A stretch of 64,000 nt of DNA from Bacteroidota bacterium (GTDB lineage Bacteria > Bacteroidota > Ignavibacteria > UBA10030 > SZUA-254): NCBI GenBank assembly GCA_020056225.1, contig JAGVIE010000044.1, positions 62,001 to 126,000 on the forward strand, in the 5' to 3' direction. Positions 38,817 to 49,131 of this stretch are shown here, piece by piece (position 1 is the stretch's first letter; each line of letters begins with the position of its first letter). Made by a program: the position numbers and the translations under genes. Below the pieces are notes generated by a model. That model had not been told where the DNA came from. It saw only the letters and a program-made list of their open reading frames with translations, and ran no database searches.

Positions 38817-40832
38817 ATGTCACTTCTCGATTCCACAACCGGAAAGCAAATAAAAAATTATTCAATTGATGAGCTGAAAGAACAAGCGAATCTCATGCGG
38901 GGATATAATCTCGTAGCTCTTCATGCGGCTGGTTCTGGCCATGCGGGAGGCACGCTGTCTATTATGGACATCACCGCGGCACTCTATCTGAAAGTTGCAG
39001 ATCACGATCCGAAGAATCCATCGTGGGAAGATAGGGATAGAATCATCTGGTCAACCGGTCATAAAGCTCCGAGCCTTTATCTCGGACTCGCATTCGCGGG
39101 CTTCTGTAAAAAAGAGGACGTGATGTATCTGCGAAAATTGTACTCACCATTCCAGGGGCATCCTCACTGGCTAAAACTTCCCGGCGTTGAATTATCGAGC
39201 GGCTCGCTCGGACAGGGATTAAGCGTTTCTGTAGGCATTGCTCTCGCCGGAAAGTTGAACGGCAAGAGTTATAAAACATTCTGCATCATGGGCGATGGCG
39301 AACAGCAGGAAGGAAATGTTTGGGAAGCGGTAATGGAAGCCGGACATTACAAACTCGATAATATCATCGGCATAGTGGATTTCAACAGACTGCAGATTGA
39401 CGGATGGGTGAAGGATGTTATGAACATCGATCCTCTGGAGGATAAGTATAAAAGCTTCGGCTGGAATGTAGTGCGGATAAATGGACACGATATGAAGCAA
39501 GTGGTCGACACATTAAACAATGCAAAGAAAAATACCGGAAAACCCTTGCTCATCATCGCCGATACTGTGAAAGGCAAAGGTGTCAGCTTCATGGAGGATG
39601 TTGCGGGATGGCACGGTAAGACGCCGAACTACGATGAGATGCTTAAGGGATTGGATGAACTGAAATTGAAAGATAAGATTCCTTATGAGAAACTTCTTGA
39701 GCATGCGAAAGAATATCAGAAAGAAGTGGACAAGATACTCGATTCCAAAATGCCGAAGTTCAAGAAAAATTACTGGTGGAATTCCGACGCTGTTATGAAA
39801 GTAAAGATGGAACCAACCCGAAAAGGTTTTGGTCAATCACTTGCAGAGTATGGAGATGATGACAGAGTTGTTGCGCTTGGTCTCGATATTTCAGGATCAA
39901 TTACGATTAGTGAATTTTATCAGGGAAAACCCGAACGAAAAAAACGATGGATCAGTATGGGAATTGCAGAACAATCTGCGACTGCGGCAGCGGCAGGATT
40001 GGCAAAGGAAGGAAAGCTTCCTGTGCTCGGCACATACGGAACTTTCGCGGCGGCGAGAAATTTAGACCAGATCAGGGTATCTGTGTGTTACGCCAACGTT
40101 AACGTTTTCATAGCAGGCGCGCACGGCGGTGTTTCAGTGGGACCAGACGGTGCGACACATCAGGCGCTTGAAGATTTATTCAATGTTTGCGGATTGCCAA
40201 ACATGTCGGTTGTTGTTCCATGCGATGCAATTGAGACGAAAAAAGCGAGCGATTATCTTTTACTAAAACATATCGGACCCAAGTTCCTCCGCTTCGCCCG
40301 TGAGGCAACACCGATTGTCACTACGGAAGAAACACCGTTTATTTTCGGTAAAGCAAATATTTCCCGGTTCAGAAAAGAAACTGAAAATCTAATTGATGCG
40401 TTCGATACGGTTCTCGCCGAACAATACAAGGATGAGCATGAGAATCTCTCAATCATCGCTTGCGGACCGATGGTGCCTGAGGCGATGCGTGCCGCTTACA
40501 TCCTGAAGAAAGATTTCGGCTGGGAAACGCGCGTTGTAAACATTCACACTCTGAAACCAATCGATGAAACAGCGATAATCCGCGCCGCGAAAGAAACAGG
40601 TGTTGTTATCACGGCAGAAGAACACCAGATCGGCGCGCTTGCGTGGCGTGTGAGCGGAGTTATCACAGAAAGCCAGGAACTCTACGGCAAGCCGATTATT
40701 ACCGGTGCAATTGGAGTGAAAGACCGCTTCGGCGACTCCGGCGCACCGTGGGAGTTGGTAAAAGAGTTTGAAGTAAGCGCTGAGCATATCGCAAAAAAAG
40801 CGGTGGAGTTGATGAAGATAATAAAAATGTGA
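38817..40832 (+). CDS. tkt: Transketolase
   Basis: 671 residues, single chain with both halves. TPP site: GDGEQQEGNVWEAVMEAGHY and NRLQIDG; active-site 'GSGHAGGTLSIMDI' near residue 40; pyrimidine domain with MGIAEQSATAAAAGLAKEG (the catalytic glutamate) and LPVLGTYGTFAA; C-terminal domain with ITAEEHQIGALAWRV. Pentose phosphate pathway/ribose synthesis. ATG with AAAGGA about 9 nt upstream. The gene's last 34 codons or so contain one half of a 61-bp direct repeat (see the findings), whose other copy marks the far end of an accessory segment. Confidence 0.95.
   Translation: MSLLDSTTGKQIKNYSIDELKEQANLMRGYNLVALHAAGSGHAGGTLSIMDITAALYLKVADHDPKNPSWEDRDRIIWSTGHKAPSLYLGLAFAGFCKKEDVMYLRKLYSPFQGHPHWLKLPGVELSSGSLGQGLSVSVGIALAGKLNGKSYKTFCIMGDGEQQEGNVWEAVMEAGHYKLDNIIGIVDFNRLQIDGWVKDVMNIDPLEDKYKSFGWNVVRINGHDMKQVVDTLNNAKKNTGKPLLIIADTVKGKGVSFMEDVAGWHGKTPNYDEMLKGLDELKLKDKIPYEKLLEHAKEYQKEVDKILDSKMPKFKKNYWWNSDAVMKVKMEPTRKGFGQSLAEYGDDDRVVALGLDISGSITISEFYQGKPERKKRWISMGIAEQSATAAAAGLAKEGKLPVLGTYGTFAAARNLDQIRVSVCYANVNVFIAGAHGGVSVGPDGATHQALEDLFNVCGLPNMSVVVPCDAIETKKASDYLLLKHIGPKFLRFAREATPIVTTEETPFIFGKANISRFRKETENLIDAFDTVLAEQYKDEHENLSIIACGPMVPEAMRAAYILKKDFGWETRVVNIHTLKPIDETAIIRAAKETGVVITAEEHQIGALAWRVSGVITESQELYGKPIITGAIGVKDRFGDSGAPWELVKEFEVSAEHIAKKAVELMKIIKM
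40730..40790 (+). repeat. Direct repeat A at transketolase 3' end
   Basis: 61 bases inside tkt encoding the C-terminal GDSGAPWELVKEFEVSAEHI. A second copy at 46509-46569 differs at six positions (55/61 identical) and keeps the same reading frame. Confidence 0.85.
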
Positions 40833-41258
40833 GCTGCTGTTACGGAACGACACCGGAACATATTGCGGCAATAAAAATATCTATGTCAATGCCCACTTTT
40901 CTTTCAGAGATAATTCTTGGTGTAGTGAAGGAAGAATGTTGCGGTGAGATCAAAAAATATATTGACTTTCACACCGTCAAATTATATATTCTTGCTGAAT
41001 AAAATTTTGAGTTGATGACCTGGGGCGGTTTTGGTGAATTAGTTTTCGATTTGGCGCGTTTCTACTTTATATTTCTACTGGAAAACGAAAGACGAACATT
41101 AAATACCGGATGAAACGCAGAAATTGCTTAGATAAGCTAAAATTAAAAAGCGTAATAACAGTTTATCCCGTTCCGAATGTTTTCGGAACGGGACAATATT
41201 GCATCATTACAGATGTGAGGCGTCATTGTGTGCCACCTGTGAAAGGAAATCAAAACTT
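40833..41258. other. Left edge of the accessory region, no gene recognised
   Basis: 426 bases between tkt and the GIY-YIG gene. It contains A/T-rich sequence, one 38-codon open frame without a good ribosome site (not called), and the hairpin at 41166-41193. No attC-like site is visible here, nor an attI or integrase gene. Confidence 0.5.
41166..41193 (+). terminator. Strong palindrome, possible terminator
   Basis: 12-bp perfect stem TCCCGTTCCGAA / TTCGGAACGGGA with a four-base loop. No T-tract follows on the plus strand (ACAATATT); on the minus strand TAAACTGT follows. It may be a repeat-type palindrome rather than a terminator. Confidence 0.4.
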
Positions 41259-41891
41259 ATGAACATTGAATCCATTGAACTCGCCTCCATCTATCGTGAG
41301 ATTCGGTCATGCTATCCGAAGGGCTGTTCCCCGCCTCCGCTACCAGAGAGGGACGAAGAACCATATGTGAAATTCCGGAAGTCATACAAACAAGTCATCA
41401 AGAAAGTACCGCAAACAAACGGTGTTTACCTTTGGTACGCAGTCAGACCGAACAATCAAGTTGAGTACATCTACGTTGGCGAATCCCACAGCAACAAGTC
41501 TGGCTTACGTGGCAGGCTCGACGATGAGTTTCGAAGAACCTATCACGGATTTTGGGCAACTGTTTTTGCAAGTGATAAGTACCTTGAAGAGGCGATCACG
41601 GTTTTCGGTGATCGGACAAGATACAATCCGAAGAAGTCCTACGAAACAGATATTCGCAATGACTACGAACGGCATGGTGCGACACATGTTGTTTTTTGCC
41701 ACGACGTTACCGCTCAACTCAACGTCGTTGCCGTTCAGAACGATTTGATCCAGCTGTTCGACAATCCACGTGGTAACATTAAGGATGTGCGGACAAAACC
41801 TTTGCCCGAGTCTCAACTTTCAGCAGAGGCAAAGGTGATCTACAAATCATTTTGTCAAGCTGTTCAATCTTCACAACCATGCAGTATCTAA
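41259..41891 (+). CDS. GIY-YIG-like domain protein, probable gene cassette
   Basis: 210 residues; ATG at 41259 preceded by GAAAGGA about 10 nt upstream, whereas an upstream ATG at 41199 gives a Cys-rich N-terminus without a family look. The central part 'GVYLWYAVRPNNQVEYIYVG' followed by ES-n-LRGRLDDEFRR has the GVY-x-n-YVG-x-n-R layout of the GIY-YIG nuclease fold. The later catalytic glutamate is not obvious. Single gene followed after 18 nt by an attC-like palindrome, so it is a candidate cassette. Function could be a nuclease-like defence or a host-independent repair protein. Confidence 0.6.
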   Translation: MNIESIELASIYREIRSCYPKGCSPPPLPERDEEPYVKFRKSYKQVIKKVPQTNGVYLWYAVRPNNQVEYIYVGESHSNKSGLRGRLDDEFRRTYHGFWATVFASDKYLEEAITVFGDRTRYNPKKSYETDIRNDYERHGATHVVFCHDVTAQLNVVAVQNDLIQLFDNPRGNIKDVRTKPLPESQLSAEAKVIYKSFCQAVQSSQPCSI

Positions 41892-41909
41892 TGGTGGCAC
41901 ACAACGAAC

Positions 41910-42039
41910 GCCTAACAAGCAAAATAACGACGCTGGAAAAAAAGACCAATGAATAAAAATCCTCGCTCAACAGATTTGTTCACTCGAATGAGATTTGTAT
42001 GTTCACAAAACTGTTGCGTTATTTTGCAGCACGTTAGTT
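41910..42039 (+). other. attC-like site 1
   Basis: R''-like GCCTAAC (41910-41916) then AAGC-AAAATAACG; the far side reads CGTTATTTTGCAGCAC-GTTAGTT (R' at 42033-42039). The two sides pair as TAAC/GTTA + GC + AAAATAACG with extra unpaired bases on the 3' side, which is the attC layout. An inner stem CAACAG-TTTGT / ACAAA-CTGTTG closes the structure. A second GTTAGG at 42058 just before the next gene is an alternative R' box. Confidence 0.65.
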
Positions 42040-42066
42040 GCCATTTTGTGAAAGAACGTTAGGATA

Positions 42067-42792
42067 ATGATCGCCAAACCATTTCATATCATTGTATTGT
42101 GCCTTGTTCTCACACTTGCTTCATGCAAGGATAATTCTATCACACTTGAGGACAGTCAGCCTTCTCTAAAAGGCATAATAGAGAACTGGCTGCCCGGGGA
42201 CAACAAGCTAGACATCTCCGTTGGTCGGAATGGGATCACAGTCATCCTTGATAGCACAACTGTCGATGATAATGGGGCATTTACTATCAAGATGCCATTT
42301 CCCCCTCCACCTGACAGCATGTTAAGACCATTTGTTCCTGAGACTGATTCCAATCAGCATTTTGGAGAGTTTGATGAGCGGATGTTCAGTAACTCTAATG
42401 CGAAGTATGCCTCTCTCTTCTTTCATGTTTACGCGCCTCATCATATCAGCATGGGACTCTACAACGGTAATCAATTCCTAACAACAGATTCCGGTTCAGC
42501 GATTGGAGATTATCACGTGGAATACATTTACTTTAACCAATCAACCGCCATCTCGGGATCATACAGAATCACTTTTTACGATTCTCTGCTTATCAAGCAG
42601 GCAGGGCGTTCCAATTTCATTACAATTTACAATTTACATCTATCCGCAGGATGGAATAGAATTACGACTGTACTTAGAGCCAACGATACGCAGACCAGAA
42701 TTTTTGAAGTTACTAGCGATAGTTTCCATGACACTAAATGGTTTGCTGTTTGGTCAATGTCACGGACTTTTGATTATGCAAAGCTATTCTAG
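42067..42792 (+). CDS. Lipoprotein of unknown function, probable gene cassette
   Basis: 241 residues. Lipobox LTLASC gives a lipidated Cys near residue 20 after a short signal (IIVLCLVLTLASC). The mature protein is beta-rich with proline- and aspartate-rich stretches (MPFPPPPDSMLRPFVPETDS) and ends 'WFAVWSMSRTFDYAKLF'. The start ATG at 42067 lies just after the attC-like box GTTAGGA. No family recognised. Followed after 23 nt by attC-like site 2. Cassettes often carry such unrecognised exported proteins. Confidence 0.65.
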   Translation: MIAKPFHIIVLCLVLTLASCKDNSITLEDSQPSLKGIIENWLPGDNKLDISVGRNGITVILDSTTVDDNGAFTIKMPFPPPPDSMLRPFVPETDSNQHFGEFDERMFSNSNAKYASLFFHVYAPHHISMGLYNGNQFLTTDSGSAIGDYHVEYIYFNQSTAISGSYRITFYDSLLIKQAGRSNFITIYNLHLSAGWNRITTVLRANDTQTRIFEVTSDSFHDTKWFAVWSMSRTFDYAKLF

Positions 42793-42815
42793 ACGTATCC
42801 ACGTCGCCAAACGGC

Positions 42816-42933
42816 AACTAACACGGCAAACAACGACGTACGGAGTTTAAGCATGGACGCTCAATACTTTTGTTCACGAGAATGAGAATTATATGTTCAC
42901 AAAAGTATTGAGTTGTTTGCCGAGACGTTATGC
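42816..42933 (+). other. attC-like site 2 (clearest copy)
   Basis: R''-like AACTAAC (42816-42822) followed by A-CGGCAAACAAC; the opposite side has GTTGTTTGCCG-AGAC-GTTATGC (R' at 42927-42933). The 11-bp CGGCAAACAAC arm pairs exactly and the 3' side has three extra bases, as expected for extrahelical bases in attC. An inner perfect hairpin CTCAATACTTTTGT / ACAAAAGTATTGAG (42869-42910) fills the variable part. Confidence 0.75.
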
Positions 42934-43009
42934 GCAAGAAAAGGTTCTTTTTCAAAGACATTTTGCAACACGCTTTTTCGGACACCAAACACACTAACGG
43001 ACAAAACAT

Positions 43010-43717
43010 ATGACACAACTCCAAACGAATGCAAGAATCGCCGGATTATTCTACCTGCTCATGGCTGTCACCGGTCCTTTCGTGCTCATCTATGTTCCCG
43101 GGAAGTTGTTTGTTACGGGGGATGCAGCCGCAACAGTTGCCAATATCTTTGCCAATCAATTGCTTTTTCGAGCGTATATTGTAGTCGGGCTCTTTTCTGA
43201 GATGTTCTTCATCTTGACTGTGTTGGCGCTCTATCGGTTGCTCAAAGAGGTAAACTGCCAGCTTGCCAAGCTCATGGTGATATTGGTTCTGGTCGAGGCG
43301 CCGTTGGCGTTCTTGGGAGTAGCGAACCAAATTGCCACACTTTCGTTCGTGCAAGGTTCCAATCTGCTGGCTGTATTCGACAAGCCCCAACGGGACGCTC
43401 TCGCCACATTGCTAATCAACATCGATAGACAGGGGGTTCCGGTCTCCGAGTTGTTTTGGGGTCTATGGCTTCTTCCTCTCGCATTCCTTGTCTATCGGTC
43501 GGGCTTTCTACCTCGCTTCCTTGGCGTGTGGTTGTTTTTGAATGGTATCGCATATGTAATAATAAGCTTCATTGGTATGCTGTTGCCGGAACATGTGCAG
43601 ATCGCCAACACTGTAAGCTTTCCGCTTCTTCTCGGCGAAGTAGCATTTTTACTTTGGTTACTGATTGTTGGAGCAAAGCAGAAGCCACTCTCCAAAACAG
43701 TGCCTGACCTCGGATAA
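43010..43717 (+). CDS. DUF4386 family membrane protein, probable gene cassette
   Basis: 235 residues, about six transmembrane helices, matching DUF4386: starts with 'ARIAGLFYLLMAVTGPFVLI', has 'FRAYIVVGLFSEMFFILTV' and 'FLPRFLGVWLFLNGIAYVI'. ATG at 43010 without a strong Shine-Dalgarno. DUF4386 proteins are frequent cassette and island passengers of unknown function. Between attC-like site 2 and the degenerate site 3, same orientation as both. Confidence 0.8.
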   Translation: MTQLQTNARIAGLFYLLMAVTGPFVLIYVPGKLFVTGDAAATVANIFANQLLFRAYIVVGLFSEMFFILTVLALYRLLKEVNCQLAKLMVILVLVEAPLAFLGVANQIATLSFVQGSNLLAVFDKPQRDALATLLINIDRQGVPVSELFWGLWLLPLAFLVYRSGFLPRFLGVWLFLNGIAYVIISFIGMLLPEHVQIANTVSFPLLLGEVAFLLWLLIVGAKQKPLSKTVPDLG

Positions 43718-43805
43718 AGTGCGTGCCGCAATATGCTGATGACATAGACTTTTGCCTGTGTATAACAATCATTAATCCGATACTGGATAATAAAACCGAT
43801 GAATA

Positions 43806-43891
43806 TAAATCCTCGCTCAATATTTTTGTTCACCGTAATCAATTCCTTTATTATTCACAAAAGTATTGCGTGTTTTTGCCAGACGTTCCGC
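43806..43891 (+). other. attC-like site 3, degenerate
   Basis: The inner stem CTCAATATTTTTGT / ACAAAAGTATTG and the 3' arm TGTTTTTGCC-AGAC-GTTCCGC (R'-like, 43885-43891) match site 2, but the 5' arm with the R'' box was not found. The leader words TAAATCCTCGCTCAA also match site 1. Probably a broken site; the cassette boundary is therefore uncertain. Confidence 0.5.
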
Positions 43892-44003
43892 AGCCATTCG
43901 CTCGCGAGTGGTTGCGCAAGATAATGGTGAATCCGTTAATTAGAATCTACATAGAAAATGAATCATCGCTTTACATCCAAATGCAATATCACTTAGGGAA
44001 AAT

Positions 44004-44951
44004 ATGAAGCGCGATAAACTACGTAACTACATCATCGCGCCGTTAACTGTGGTGACATTTTTTTCTCTTGTCAGTGTGATAACATGGTCGGCAGGAGAAA
44101 ACTTTCTGACCATTATCAATTACATTTACATCGGTCTCTTTGCATCGCTCGGCATGTTTCTCTATGCGAAGCTGCCTAAAAACAAAAAGCTCAGAGCACG
44201 CCGGATTTCGATGTTTGCCATCGGATTGCTCCTCTTTCTCGCAATGGGTGTAATGGGACGTATCGACGGTCAGTTGGAAGGATTCTTCTTCTATGGCTTG
44301 GCAGGAATTACTGCCGGAACGGTTTCACATTATCTGATTGCAAAAATTATTGGACCGATCTTTCTCAACCGCGGCTGGTGCGGCTGGGGATGCTGGACAA
44401 TCATGATCCTCGATTTATTCCCATACAAAAGAAGTGACGGTCGGCTAAACGAGAAGTTCGGTTGGATTCAATACCTGCACTTTGCTCTAAGTCTCGGCTT
44501 GGTACTTTTGCTCTGGTTCGGACTTGACTACAGCGTAAGCAGACAGCAATGGGACATCACCGGGATGTACTGGTTTTTAGGCGGTAACATCGTGTACTAC
44601 GCCATCGGAATCAGTCTCGTACTCTTGTTGAAAGACAATCGGGCGTTTTGTAAGTACGTATGCCCTGTCTCAGTGTTTCTGAAAGCGTCCGGTACATTCT
44701 CCTTACTTCGAATCAAGGGCACCAGCAAGCTCTGCGATAGTTGCGACGCATGCACCAAAACCTGCCCGATGAACATCCGTATACCAGACTACATACTTGC
44801 AGGTAAACGAGTGTTATCAACGGAATGTGTGATGTGCCTGACCTGCATAAATACTTGTCCAACCGGTGCGCTGAAAGCATCGCTTGGTTTTGACATCAGC
44901 GGCATAAGTATATTGCAACAAAAAACTATGTTGGAAAAGGAGAATGTATGA
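44004..44951 (+). CDS. Membrane 4Fe-4S ferredoxin-type protein (NapH/RdxA-like)
   Basis: 315 residues. About six membrane helices, a membrane-proximal CGWGCWTIM and CKYVCPVSVFLK motif pair (the Cys-x3-Cys-P quinol/Fe-S relay typical of NapH/CcoG/NosR-type proteins) and a C-terminal pair of ferredoxin motifs: LCDSCDACTKTCPMNIRIPD and ECVMCLTCINTCPTGAL (two CxxCxxCxxxCP clusters). Likely an electron-transfer protein of the inner membrane. Its end overlaps the next gene's start by 4 nt (ATGA), so the two are co-translated. Confidence 0.85.
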   Translation: MKRDKLRNYIIAPLTVVTFFSLVSVITWSAGENFLTIINYIYIGLFASLGMFLYAKLPKNKKLRARRISMFAIGLLLFLAMGVMGRIDGQLEGFFFYGLAGITAGTVSHYLIAKIIGPIFLNRGWCGWGCWTIMILDLFPYKRSDGRLNEKFGWIQYLHFALSLGLVLLLWFGLDYSVSRQQWDITGMYWFLGGNIVYYAIGISLVLLLKDNRAFCKYVCPVSVFLKASGTFSLLRIKGTSKLCDSCDACTKTCPMNIRIPDYILAGKRVLSTECVMCLTCINTCPTGALKASLGFDISGISILQQKTMLEKENV

Positions 44952-46471
44952 ATCAAAATAATCGCGATTCTGTCTTATGGTCTCTTTCTATTCTCACAGT
45001 TGTTATTCACTTGATAATAAATTGGCTGGGAGGATACGGCATCTTCCGAGATGAACTGTATTACATCGCCTGCGCGAATCATCCGGACATAGGTTATGTC
45101 GATCATCCTCCTTTGTCGATTTGGATACTCTCTGTATGGAAATTCTTTTTCGGCGATTCACTCTTTTCAATTCGATTTCTTCCAGCTCTTATCAGCGGAC
45201 TTACGACGTTCATTGTCGGTGCGCTCGCCAGAAATTTTGGCGGCGAGAAGTATGCAGTCATCCTTGCGTGCCTCGCATCGATCTTTGCCCCAATCTTCCT
45301 TGCTTTCTTTGGCTTATTCAGCATGAATGCGTTTGACGTTTTCCTGTGGGCACTCGCGTTTCTCATCGTCCGGAGAATTTCTCAAAACCATCAATCAGGT
45401 TATTGGTATGGGCTGGGATTGATAATCGGACTAGGGGCGTTGAACAAGATCAGCATGCTCTGGCTTGGCGCGGGAATTTTTATCGGTTTACTGATTACTT
45501 CAAACCGTACAGCCCTGCGATCTAAATCTCCCTGGCTCGCCGGATGTCTGGCAGTAGTACTTTTTCTGCCATTTGTTCTCTGGAATATAACACACGACTT
45601 TGCTCATCTTGAGTTCATTCGAAATGCTTCAGCAGAAAAGTATGCGTCGCAAAATCCGGCTACATTTTTCTCCGGCTTATTGTTGATCATGAATCCGCTG
45701 GCGGCACCTCTATGGCTTGCCGGATTCTGGTTTCTCATTGCACGAAGAGAGCATCGCATCATCGGGTTTGCTGTCCTGACAGTCCTTGCGGTCTTGCTTA
45801 TCAACATACATTCCAAGCCGGAATATTTTGCGGCGGCAATGACGGTTCTGGTTCCGGCGGGAGCCGTGCAGATTGAGCGGTTGCTTAAAGGAAAATATTT
45901 CCGTTGGATACGCCTTCCATATGTGATTTGCCTGACCGTATTTGGAATATTCTTAATGCCGTTGACGGTTGATATTCTTCCGGTCGAATCGTTTGTCAGG
46001 TACCAATCTGCGTTGGGAATTACTGCGCCTTCGACTGAAGGTCATCGCTTAAATGATCTCCCACAACATTACGCAGATCGATTTGGCTGGAAACACATGG
46101 CGGAAGTCACCGCCAAAGTATATGCGTCGCTTCCCGATTCGGAGAAACAGAATTGTCTGATCTACGGCAGGAACTACGGCGAAGCCAGTGCAGTTGATTA
46201 CTTCGGAAGAGATTTCGGACTTCCTCCCGCAATCAGTCAGCACAACAGCTACTGGTACTGGAGCCGGAAACATCTAAGACAAGATATGGTATTGATAGTC
46301 ATCGGCGTGACCAAAGATCAGTTGTTGGATGATTTCGACGAGGTTCAAGAAGCCGGGATCATTCAGTCAGACTATGCGATGCCGTATGAAAATGATCTTC
46401 CGGTTTTGATATGCCGGAAACTTAGAAGACCCGTGCTGGAAGTCTGGAACGGAAGAAAAGTTTTTATTTGA
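44948..46471 (+). CDS. ArnT/PMT-like glycosyltransferase family 39 membrane protein
   Basis: 507 residues with about 11 membrane helices. N-terminal 'GYGIFRDELYYIACANHPDI' carries the conserved acidic D-E pair of GT39 enzymes in the first periplasmic loop, and 'GYVDHPPLSIW' and 'FLIVRRISQNHQSGYWYGLG' follow the ArnT/PMT_2 layout. A soluble C-terminal domain (RYQSALGITAPSTEG onwards) is present. Transfers a sugar from a polyprenyl carrier to a lipid or protein; acceptor unknown. Overlaps the upstream Fe-S membrane gene by 4 nt. Downstream only 38 nt separate it from the repeat-B remnant of tkt. Confidence 0.82.
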   Translation: MNQNNRDSVLWSLSILTVVIHLIINWLGGYGIFRDELYYIACANHPDIGYVDHPPLSIWILSVWKFFFGDSLFSIRFLPALISGLTTFIVGALARNFGGEKYAVILACLASIFAPIFLAFFGLFSMNAFDVFLWALAFLIVRRISQNHQSGYWYGLGLIIGLGALNKISMLWLGAGIFIGLLITSNRTALRSKSPWLAGCLAVVLFLPFVLWNITHDFAHLEFIRNASAEKYASQNPATFFSGLLLIMNPLAAPLWLAGFWFLIARREHRIIGFAVLTVLAVLLINIHSKPEYFAAAMTVLVPAGAVQIERLLKGKYFRWIRLPYVICLTVFGIFLMPLTVDILPVESFVRYQSALGITAPSTEGHRLNDLPQHYADRFGWKHMAEVTAKVYASLPDSEKQNCLIYGRNYGEASAVDYFGRDFGLPPAISQHNSYWYWSRKHLRQDMVLIVIGVTKDQLLDDFDEVQEAGIIQSDYAMPYENDLPVLICRKLRRPVLEVWNGRKVFI

Positions 46472-46508
46472 AGGTCAGAACGTCCCTGAGTTTCTTGATG
46501 ACGCGGGG

Positions 46509-46569
46509 TCGGTGATTGCTGCGCACCATGGGAGTTGGTGAAAGAGTTTGAAGTAAGCGCTGAGCATAT
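46509..46569 (+). repeat. Direct repeat B, displaced fragment of a transketolase 3' end
   Basis: Frame-preserving copy of tkt codons (translation GDCCAPWELVKEFEVSAEHI), then immediate divergence. It has no start of its own. Marks the right end of the 5.7-kb segment beginning in tkt. Confidence 0.85.
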
Positions 46570-46825
46570 ATCTGGTATTGAATTGGGAGATTCATCTTAC
46601 TTTGACTTTTGATTTGACAATTTTTAAATTATTCTAACTTATTTTTGACTTTATGATCGGAAGTAAACGTTGATGAAAAACATTTCAATTAGATGAATAT
46701 GAGTTTGATGATTTATGTTACTATGAAAAAGAATAACAACGATATTCGTTTTTACAACTATTGTGCAGTAATTACGCAATGCGGATATAAATAGATAGCT
46801 GTTGTTGCTGTCAAAGGATTAGAAG
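46570..46825. other. Gap between repeat B and the KAP gene
   Basis: A/T-rich, about 256 bases. A 23-codon open frame near 46722 has no ribosome site and is not called. No attC-like palindrome or promoter could be identified with confidence. Confidence 0.4.
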
Positions 46826-49057
46826 ATGACAAATGTTCACGAAGAACAAGGGAAAGTAGAATCGGCTAATACGTTTGTTTCAGATGGAGCCATAACCAAT
46901 CCAAGCCTCGATAGGTTTAGACGATGGCCCTTTGCTTTAAGGATCGCTCAAACTATAGCTACACGTGAAGACCCAAATTGTATCGTCATCGGAATATATG
47001 GCGCTTGGGGAGAAGGAAAGACCACAGTTCTTAACTTCATTCAGCACGAATTGAAGCAATACCCAAACATCATACCTGTTAAGTTTAATCCTTGGCGATT
47101 CGGCGACGAAGCAACCTTACTGAAGAGTTTCTTCAAGACGCTGGCAGATGCACTTAAGAAATCACTATCGACAAGCGTGGAAAAGATCGGCGAATGGCTT
47201 CAGGAGTACGGGGCTATTCTATCACCGATATCACTCACGCTTAGTGGAGTTGTAAGTATTTCACCCGGTGAGGGAACAAAAGAGTTTGGCAAGTCCCTCT
47301 CCGCTGTTGAGCTTGACACTCTCAAAGAGAGGATCGAGAAATACCTGAAGGATGCGAAGGTACGCGTTGTGATCCTGATGGATGATATTGACAGACTCGA
47401 CAAAGTCGAGATTAACAACGTTTTCAAACTCATCAAGCTCACTGCCGATTTCTCGTACACTGCTTACGTTCTTGCTTTCGACAACAGAATGGCGGCGGCG
47501 GCCCTGAGAGAGAAGTACGTTTCGGCTGACACTGACGCGGGTGAGAGTTTTCTCGACAAAATCATTCAGGTTCCGCTTCACCTTCCGAAGGCTGACACGA
47601 TTGCGCTCCGAAAGCTCTGTTTTGAAGGTGTAGAACAAGCCATTCACACAGCGCAAATCGATGTGACACAAGATCAGGCCAATGAGTTTGTCCGCCATTT
47701 CATTTCTGGCTTGGAGATTCGTCTACAGACTCCACGAAGTGCAAAGAGGTATTCGAACGCTCTGCTATTTGCGTTGCCAATTCTAAAAGGTGAAGTGAAT
47801 TCGATTGACTTGATGCTCATCGAAGGTATCAGAGTTTTCTATCCGAGACTCTACACCTTCATACGAGCCAATAGCAATCTCTTCCTGCAATCATCATCCA
47901 AATACTCTGGACCCTTCGGTGAAGATGATAAGAAGAAACAGGCATTACTTTCCAGCGCATTTGAAGGCCTCACAAGTGACGAAGCCCAAGCAGCAACTTC
48001 ACTTCTCAAGGAGCTTTTCCCTTGCTTCGGAAAAATGGGGTACGGTTCGAATTGGGAAGAGACATGGGCAAAGGGAAAACGCATTGCTTCAGAGTTCTAT
48101 TTTGGTCGATACTTCTCCTATGCTATCCCTGAAGGTGATGTGTCCGATGTAGCTATCGAGGATTTCATCTCGAATTTGTCCAAACTCAGTGTTGAAGAAA
48201 TTGTCGTCTCATTGAATGAGATCGTGACTCCACGTAATGCGGATAATCTCGTGCTGAAACTAAGAGATTGAGAAAGCAATCTGCCTTCCGAGAATGCCCA
48301 AAAATTAGGTCTAGCCATTTCTCATTCTGGTGGTCTGTTCCCAAAACCTGAGACACTGTTGTCACACAGTACAGCATTCTCGCAGGCGGCCATTTTAGTT
48401 GCAAGACTCTCACACAACATCTCGATTCGTGAAGAGAGGATCGAATATGCTGAAAAAGTAATCGTTGAGGGCAATCCCCTTTTCTTCTCAGTAGATGCAT
48501 GGCGCTGGTTCAGATCAGACAAAGATACACCAGAAACTGAACGTAAACTTACCGATGCTCAAGAGAACATACTAAGTCATACGTTGGCAGAAAGAATCAA
48601 GGTGACTGCTAAAGAAGGGCCTATGTATATTAGTTACCCGGAGGATTCACCATCAATGCTTGCCATTTGGGCGAATTGGATATCCCGCGATGAGACAAAC
48701 CAATACCTTGCTCAATCGTTCTCACTGGCCCAGCAAAACATTCTTGATTTCCTCAAAACATATCTTTCAACTGCTTGGGGCATGGAATCCGGTCTCCCAC
48801 ACAAGAGTGAACTGAGGAGAGAACAGTATGATTTAATCGTACGCGTTGTTGATGCCGAAATCGTGTTAAAGCACCTACGGTCGATCTACGGAGATGATAT
48901 AGATAAAGCTACCTTTGAGACTAGCGGCTATGACTCAAGTGACAAAACGACGGCATTCCGTTTTTCTTCCATGCATGCACATGTGAAGTCGGAAAAGGAA
49001 ACTCAAAGCTCCGAAAAAACCGGTACGAGGCATCCGAACGACAGTAACGGTAGCTAA
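46826..49057 (+). pseudogene. KAP family P-loop NTPase with one in-frame TGA stop
   Basis: Read through, the frame is 743 residues. Walker A GAWGEGKTT (59-67), Walker B VVILMDDIDR (181-190) and FNPWRFGDEATLLKSFF are the KAP signature; KAP proteins are large NTPases often found in mobile and defence regions. The gene is interrupted at 48269-48271 by TGA (LKLRD-stop-ESNLPSENAQKLG), after which the same frame continues with family-like sequence for 262 more codons; the length is exactly divisible by three, so it is a nonsense change, not a frameshift. The two parts (481 and up to 262 residues) could be produced separately; an ATG at 48359 could reinitiate. Its own stop codon TAA lies inside attC-like site 4. 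Confidence 0.8.
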
Positions 49058-49131
49058 CACGCCAACAACGATGCTCTGTCTTTTGATAGGGAATAGTCGT
49101 CGTTGCTCCATTGTTTTTGCACACGTTATCT
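49052..49131 (+). other. attC-like site 4
   Basis: R''-like AGCTAAC (49052-49058) contains the stop codon of the KAP gene, as is usual in cassettes. The far side is TTTTTGCACAC-GTTATCT (R' at 49125-49131). Arms around GC-AACAA pair imperfectly, so this is the weakest of the paired sites. Confidence 0.5.

Follow-up and report, generated by a model that had tools for sequence, protein, structure and literature searches.

An integron-like cassette array in an Ignavibacteria genome, probably built by a recombinase without the I2 segment

In a 64,000-nucleotide stretch of DNA from a Bacteroidota bacterium of the class Ignavibacteria (hereafter the window; part of contig C33 of a draft genome, G000, of 3.5 Mb in 62 contigs), single genes are followed by imperfect palindromes that resemble the attC recombination sites of integrons. 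A preliminary description, made from the letters of the window alone, took them for attC sites and their genes for a cassette cluster without an integrase (CALIN). The locus raises the question of which recombination system these cassettes belong to. The analysis presented here indicates that the region is very probably a small, partly decayed array of an integron-like capture system with a Xer-like recombinase that lacks the I2 segment specific to the integron integrase IntI, with an attI-like site and with hairpin-ended cassettes, a reading that includes the mechanism proposed below. It is carried by features that can be read from the DNA, namely the structure of the sites, the limits of the cassettes, their linkage to the integrase, the position of attI, the absence of I2 and a cassette common to two genera.

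The sites were scored with a covariance model, R2, trained on 22 full sites that come from other loci and none of them from the window, and all four sites that had been proposed are recovered:

41911..42038, plus strand: recombination site 1; R' GTT at 42033; 99.3 bits; arms paired at 11 of 11 positions, asymmetry +3
42817..42932, plus strand: recombination site 2; R' GTT at 42927; 93.0 bits; bottom-strand folding z -6.1
43761..43890, plus strand: recombination site 3; left arm decayed; R' GTT at 43885; 65.9 bits
49053..49130, plus strand: recombination site 4; degenerate; R' GTT at 49125; 24.4 bits, E 0.023

The 11-bp arms of sites 1 and 2 are perfect, site 4 is short as well as degenerate, and the decayed left half of site 3 is found, likewise decayed, in a genome of another genus (G013). 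The CTCAAnAnnTTTGTTCAC words that had been noticed in the variable centres are genuine, the half-site recurring in each of sites 1-3 and again on C45, another contig of the host genome. Folding, which had been suggested as a check on the bottom strand, singles out site 2 (z -5.2 for the top strand and -6.1 for the bottom strand, with 0 of 200 shuffles folding as well), and sites 1, 3 and 4 are not set apart by folding alone. A search for further copies yields about 20 sites over a dozen contigs of the host genome. Rfam gives no match at its gathering thresholds. A covariance model built without the loop, R1, was dropped, as it missed even window site 2, one of its own training sequences.

The ends of the cassettes point to mobility. 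Movement as a circle closed at GTT would bring the start and the end of a cassette together in one hairpin; in the circle test, the start (after the preceding GTT) is compared with the reverse complement of the end (before the cassette's own AAC). In most arrays the two match at 13-15 of 16 positions, as opposed to about 6 of 16 both for random pairs and for the two flanks of one site, and no case passes once the flank letters are shuffled. The eighth base after GTT is unpaired in 32 of 34 cassettes and is nearly always A on the start side. The test sets cassette limits that make gene prediction unnecessary, and the 34 oriented cassettes span 400 to 2290 bp. The cassettes of the window, and the gene before site 4, are the following:

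41215..42032, plus strand: cassette 1; open reading frame (ORF) 41259-41891, no Pfam match; start GTGAGGCGTCATTGTGTGCCACC against the reverse complement of the end GTTAGGCGTTCGTTGTGTGCCACC
42033..42926, plus strand: cassette 2; ORF 42067-42792, no Pfam match; ends complementary at 13 of 16 positions; also inverted repeat I11
42927..43884, plus strand: cassette 3; ORF 43010-43717, DUF4386 (Pfam PF14329, 5e-44)
46826..49057, plus strand: KAP P-loop gene; in-frame TGA at 48269-48271; Pfam PF07693, 5.5e-51

For cassette 2, the joined ends give a fold of -35 kcal/mol (z -7.1), with a one-sided 3-nucleotide bulge between its two stems. Cassette 3 recurs on contig C29 of G013, a genome of a different genus in the same family, at 93% over 973 bp without gaps; the flanking sites differ, and the ends of the copy again read as complementary. 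DNA similarity between arrays otherwise lies mostly in platforms, integrases and flanks, and this DUF4386 cassette is the shared unit examined in detail. Sequence comparison presents the complementary ends as the mark of circular intermediates joined at GTT. The earlier picture of cassettes with attC-like imperfect palindromes, one gene per site, is borne out in that sites 1-3 bound gene cassettes. A single plus-strand gene precedes each of these three sites, as claimed, but not site 4, where the KAP gene is broken by its in-frame TGA and no cassette start was found by end complementarity. The frame does run on past the TGA to the stop codon that had been observed inside site 4, and the KAP gene region is probably a decayed cassette.

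Linkage across genomes points to the enzyme. Among 198 related genomes, a DNA search with site 2 finds matches in 20, and in several of these a tyrosine recombinase is encoded a few kb upstream of the match, in the same orientation. An integrase without I2 is encoded, at E 1e-60 or better, in 54 of the 198. At 34 integrase loci, sites of the new geometry described below lie downstream on the integrase strand and none upstream, the opposite-strand exceptions being a single match in locus L080 and an array from Candidatus Peregrinibacteria whose integrase diverges from it. Within the window's class, every locus that extends 5.6 kb or more downstream has at least one site, and siteless loci have at most 2.8 kb there. 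Contigs also end close downstream of the integrase (median 1.3 kb, versus 12.5 kb upstream; 39 loci, p 6e-4), as is expected of a repetitive, variable array. With thresholds of E 1e-100 for the integrase and E 1e-4 for sites, sites occur in 34 of 39 genomes with a strong I2-less integrase versus 25 of 159 without (p 4e-17), counts that are inflated by shared ancestry; a DNA-only count outside the window's own family goes in the same direction (p 5e-4). The Peregrinibacteria array (L215, JAHFJU010000010.1) pairs its divergent I2-less integrase with six such sites, and a matching cassette start is seen at 5 of the 6, one weak.

The window itself retains traces of such an integrase and of its attachment site:

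41085..41132, plus strand: 3' relic of an I2-less integrase gene; codons 287-302, TKDEH*IPDETQKLLR, then the natural stop
41133..41214, plus strand: left half of an attI-like platform; ends TTACAGAT right before the cassette join; aligned with attI copies and with the sequence downstream of intact integrases
43885..43918, plus strand: GTTCCGCAGCCATTCGCTCGCGAGTGG element (also written GTTCCGCAGCC), after site 3, the last site of the array

The relic, recognized by tblastn and blastn against contigs C59, C60 and C34 of the same genome, has one in-frame stop in its last 16 codons, and the DNA similarity of the window platform to that on C34 extends back to about 40944. The order is integrase relic, attI left half, three cassettes and the GTTCCGCAGCC element, which is read as the right half of attI or as an array-end element. 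On C59, an intact integrase is followed by ...CGTTTTTACAGAT running directly into GTTCCGCAGCCATTCGCTCGCGAGTGG with no site between, apparently an empty attI. Further attI copies in the host genome lie at C60:212-302, at C34:20177-20234, near 53750 on C4 and on C45, and relic integrase 3' ends accompany three of them (C60, C34, C4). At other loci, the first cassette starts soon past the stop codon of the integrase, at a distance of tens to a few hundred bp (L066, L068, L069, L084), or at the 3' end of the integrase gene (L067), often preceded by a short stem-loop ending TTACAG and two or so further bases. An attI thus lies next to the integrase gene, the first cassette joins there, and the site is conserved by DNA search. 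Because the relic and the attI left half precede cassette 1, the window array is best understood as a platform with a decayed integrase and not as an array born without one.

Several observations concern further platform-like pieces. At 46735-46765 of the window, ahead of the KAP gene, aaaaagaataacaacgatattcgtttttacaacta is similar to an attI left half and might represent a second platform in decay. A 61-bp piece at 46509-46569 repeats, at 90% identity, the 3' end of the transketolase gene (40729-40789), which lies 5.8 kb upstream, as if the flank of the platform had been duplicated. In L341 (G000:C61, at 2299 and 5333) and in L342, an element GTTCCGCAG(C/A)CATTCGCTC stands after several sites, with a small GC hairpin behind it.

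What kind of enzyme is this integrase? The I2 segment has been described as occurring in no other protein than IntI and as conferring recombination of single-stranded sites (PMC7790495, PMC4792948). The proposed search of the genome for intI returned no true IntI over the cut-off, but two intact I2-less integrase genes on other contigs (C59 and C52). The integron integrase model TIGR02249 is matched in two blocks, with its positions 180-232 absent, and the I2 (patch III) region is also missing in an alignment with the IntI proteins of relatives. The best PDB match by sequence is the Vibrio integron integrase 2A3V, again in two blocks, about 27 query residues replacing about 67 of 2A3V, with I2 among the latter. 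In structure, a predicted model (mean pLDDT 80) aligns with the archaeal Xer protein 4A8E (Z 23.1) and with 2A3V (Z 20.9), and all of ten aligned copies carry the catalytic residues R140, H232, R235, H258 and Y267. The two intact genes score 228.4 and 230.3 bits with NF040815 (XerA-like, NCBIfam), past its curated cut-off of 220 bits, and at 186-195 bits do not reach the XerC/XerD family cut-offs (330-335). Separate XerC/XerD-type genes match above the XerD cut-off in 24 of 25 close relatives. Rooted on XerCD, a tree of 55 proteins places the array-linked integrases in a clade separate from XerC/XerD and shows IntI as one clade (100/100) within a larger I2-less group; a candidate-phylum clade, to which the integrase of the Peregrinibacteria array belongs, falls outside IntI and the array-linked enzymes of the window's class (96/94 for the group excluding it). 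Among the matches listed, the named relatives nearest to the integrase of the window genome are mostly from Bacteroidetes. By alignment, tree and predicted structure, the enzyme is classed as a Xer-like tyrosine recombinase, closest to IntI, without the IntI-specific I2 segment.

The sites, too, depart from those of integrons. On the top strand they run (T)AAC, 1-2 nucleotides, stem, variable centre, returning stem, 4-5 nucleotides, GTT, with an inner stem of 10-11 near-perfect pairs, a centre that often holds a second stem and 3 extra nucleotides on the 3' side. Among 30 distinct inner stems, every pair position shows several Watson-Crick types at the +3 asymmetry. Canonical attC sites of class 1 integrons have spacers of 5 and 6 nucleotides and one extrahelical base (L''). 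As the available class 1 sites were too few and too similar for a general attC covariance model, the two geometries were counted instead: across 229 kb of these arrays there are 0 canonical and 43 new-geometry sites, and across 48 kb of class 1 plasmids 12 canonical and 0 of the new kind. The geometry is new, and the assignment to canonical attC has to be given up.

These data bear directly on the possibility that the window is an ordinary CALIN after all, composed of canonical attC cassettes moved by a true IntI that acts in trans or has since been lost. R-box-like AAC and GTT and one gene per site would fit it, as would the true IntI of 37 of the 198 relatives, one of which (G065) carries IntI together with many sites. 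Canonical attC geometry is nevertheless absent from the sites, the presence of IntI does not predict them across the 198 genomes (p 0.69), and R2 finds no significant match, and thus no site of the new kind, in 20 IntI loci, nor in 5 class 1 integron plasmids. Nor does the array simply lack an integrase, as first described: no IntI is nearby and the host genome holds none over the cut-off, but an I2-less relic and an attI-like site adjoin the array right before cassette 1, and intact I2-less genes persist on other contigs. An ordinary CALIN is accordingly unlikely. Slightly less probable still is that the host's XerC and XerD move the cassettes, as in Xer-exploiting elements, with the linked third recombinase being incidental. 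The R box and outer arm (TTGCGCATAAC) resemble a dif arm. XerC/XerD-type genes are present in nearly all genomes checked, and the use of a hairpin site without I2 is known from CTXphi and XerC (PMC4792948). Yet XerCD is near-universal and the sites track the third recombinase; they occur only downstream of its gene, and attI follows the same gene. Non-mobile palindromic repeats such as terminators or repetitive extragenic palindromic (REP)-like elements, which might well stand behind genes on one strand, are hardly credible, since they leave the complementarity of ends across a gene (the circle test already contradicts them), the constant +3 asymmetry, the integrase linkage, attI and the shared cassette unexplained.

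The capture system with an I2-less integrase remains the preferred explanation, and several points weigh against it. A convincing cassette start is absent for about 10 of 52 sites. The covariation counts are not independent proof, because the sites were partly chosen by arm complementarity; linkage and the circle test are. G065 has a true IntI and at least 17 sites, and G049, G046 and G085 have many sites, all four genomes without an I2-less integrase at E 1e-60 or better, so that another enzyme or a gene lost in assembly must be allowed for. Finally, the GTTCCGCAG element occurs twice within the C61 array and is thus not simply a unique right half of attI.

Some further loci are recorded here for completeness. 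L350 (G065:C265) is a large array in G065, which has a true IntI but lacks an I2-less integrase above threshold. A single candidate site of the new geometry each lies downstream of more distant I2-less integrases in L200 (a Bacteroidales metagenome-assembled genome, MAG) and L195 (a Chitinophaga pinensis MAG), and relatives of the I2-less integrase in Paenibacillaceae (L189, L193, L196) have no same-geometry sites nearby.

The available data is compatible with a mechanism in which an intact system consists of an I2-less integrase, an attI-like site directly after it and cassettes that usually comprise one gene and a hairpin site. On excision a cassette would close into a circle, and its two joined ends would make up one long hairpin comprising an outer stem of about 15 bp that includes AAC/GTT, a 3-nucleotide bulge on one strand and an inner stem of about 11 bp. 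This circle junction would be folded or captured as a hairpin by the integrase, which would bind the outer and inner stems as two arms and exchange strands between the folded site and either attI or a further site, at GTT or beside it, thereby inserting the cassette. Polarity might be set by the one-sided bulge together with an A of the outer arm that is conserved and unpaired, features that would take over the part played in IntI systems by the extrahelical bases recognized through I2. In the window, the integrase has decayed to its last codons, and the two intact copies of the family elsewhere in the genome would act on the array in trans. We infer the reaction, the use of one strand only, the precise point of crossover and the action in trans on the window array; the reasoning draws on CTXphi, whose hairpin mimics a duplex and is used by XerC, a recombinase that has no I2 (PMC4792948, PMC7790495).

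The findings further raise the question of whether this system may show integrons as they were before the gain of I2. The tree and the Peregrinibacteria array suggest that cassette arrays preceded I2, a suggestion that rests on one candidate-phylum array and on the rooting. It is conceivable, though we would put it at somewhat below even chances, that the arrays are older than I2, that I2-less integrases with attI and cassettes are the stem of IntI, persisting in this class, in other Bacteroidota and in candidate phyla, and that part of the unexplained CALINs in databases is theirs. The ancestor sequence has been stated to be lacking (PMC7790495, PMC4792948), and a cassette system tied to an I2-less relative of IntI makes the I2 transition directly testable. 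Integrase searches that demand the IntI-specific domain would miss such a system, and with the enzyme in 54 of 198 genomes of the class, considerable cassette traffic may be uncounted. No earlier description of I2-less or Xer-driven integrons was found in the open-licence literature.

How, then, does the system compare with those already known? It appears to work like an integron, yet as a distinct variant and not a member of the IntI type, because two features of that type fail (I2 and canonical attC) and two are present at the level of sequence (attI and circularizable cassettes joined at GTT). With class 1 and chromosomal integrons (IntI, attI, attC) it shares an integrase gene, an adjacent attI, a one-strand array of mostly single-gene cassettes, a hairpin site ending in GTT, cassette joins at GTT and detached arrays. 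It differs from them in an integrase without I2, in an inner stem of about 11 perfect pairs with no extrahelical base, in spacers of 1/4 or 2/5 instead of 5/6, in an integrase that usually lies upstream of the array on the same strand, and in cassette ends complementary over about 16 nucleotides, where those of integrons are complementary over about 7. Reverse-orientation integrons occur in Spirochaetota, and their integrase is reported as IntI, the type with the additional domain. They have the integrase on the array strand, as here, whereas the present enzyme lacks I2; they are mentioned in PMC9668308. The XerA-like recombinases (NF040815) belong to the same sequence family, above its curated cut-off, but the family model implies no cassettes, whereas the present lineage is tied to arrays and attI. 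Lastly, the CTXphi hairpin integrated by XerC, an integrative mobile element exploiting Xer (IMEX), likewise involves a recombinase without I2 on a hairpin site (PMC4792948, PMC7790495); there, a whole phage genome relies on the host's XerCD, whereas here a dedicated integrase would serve gene cassettes.

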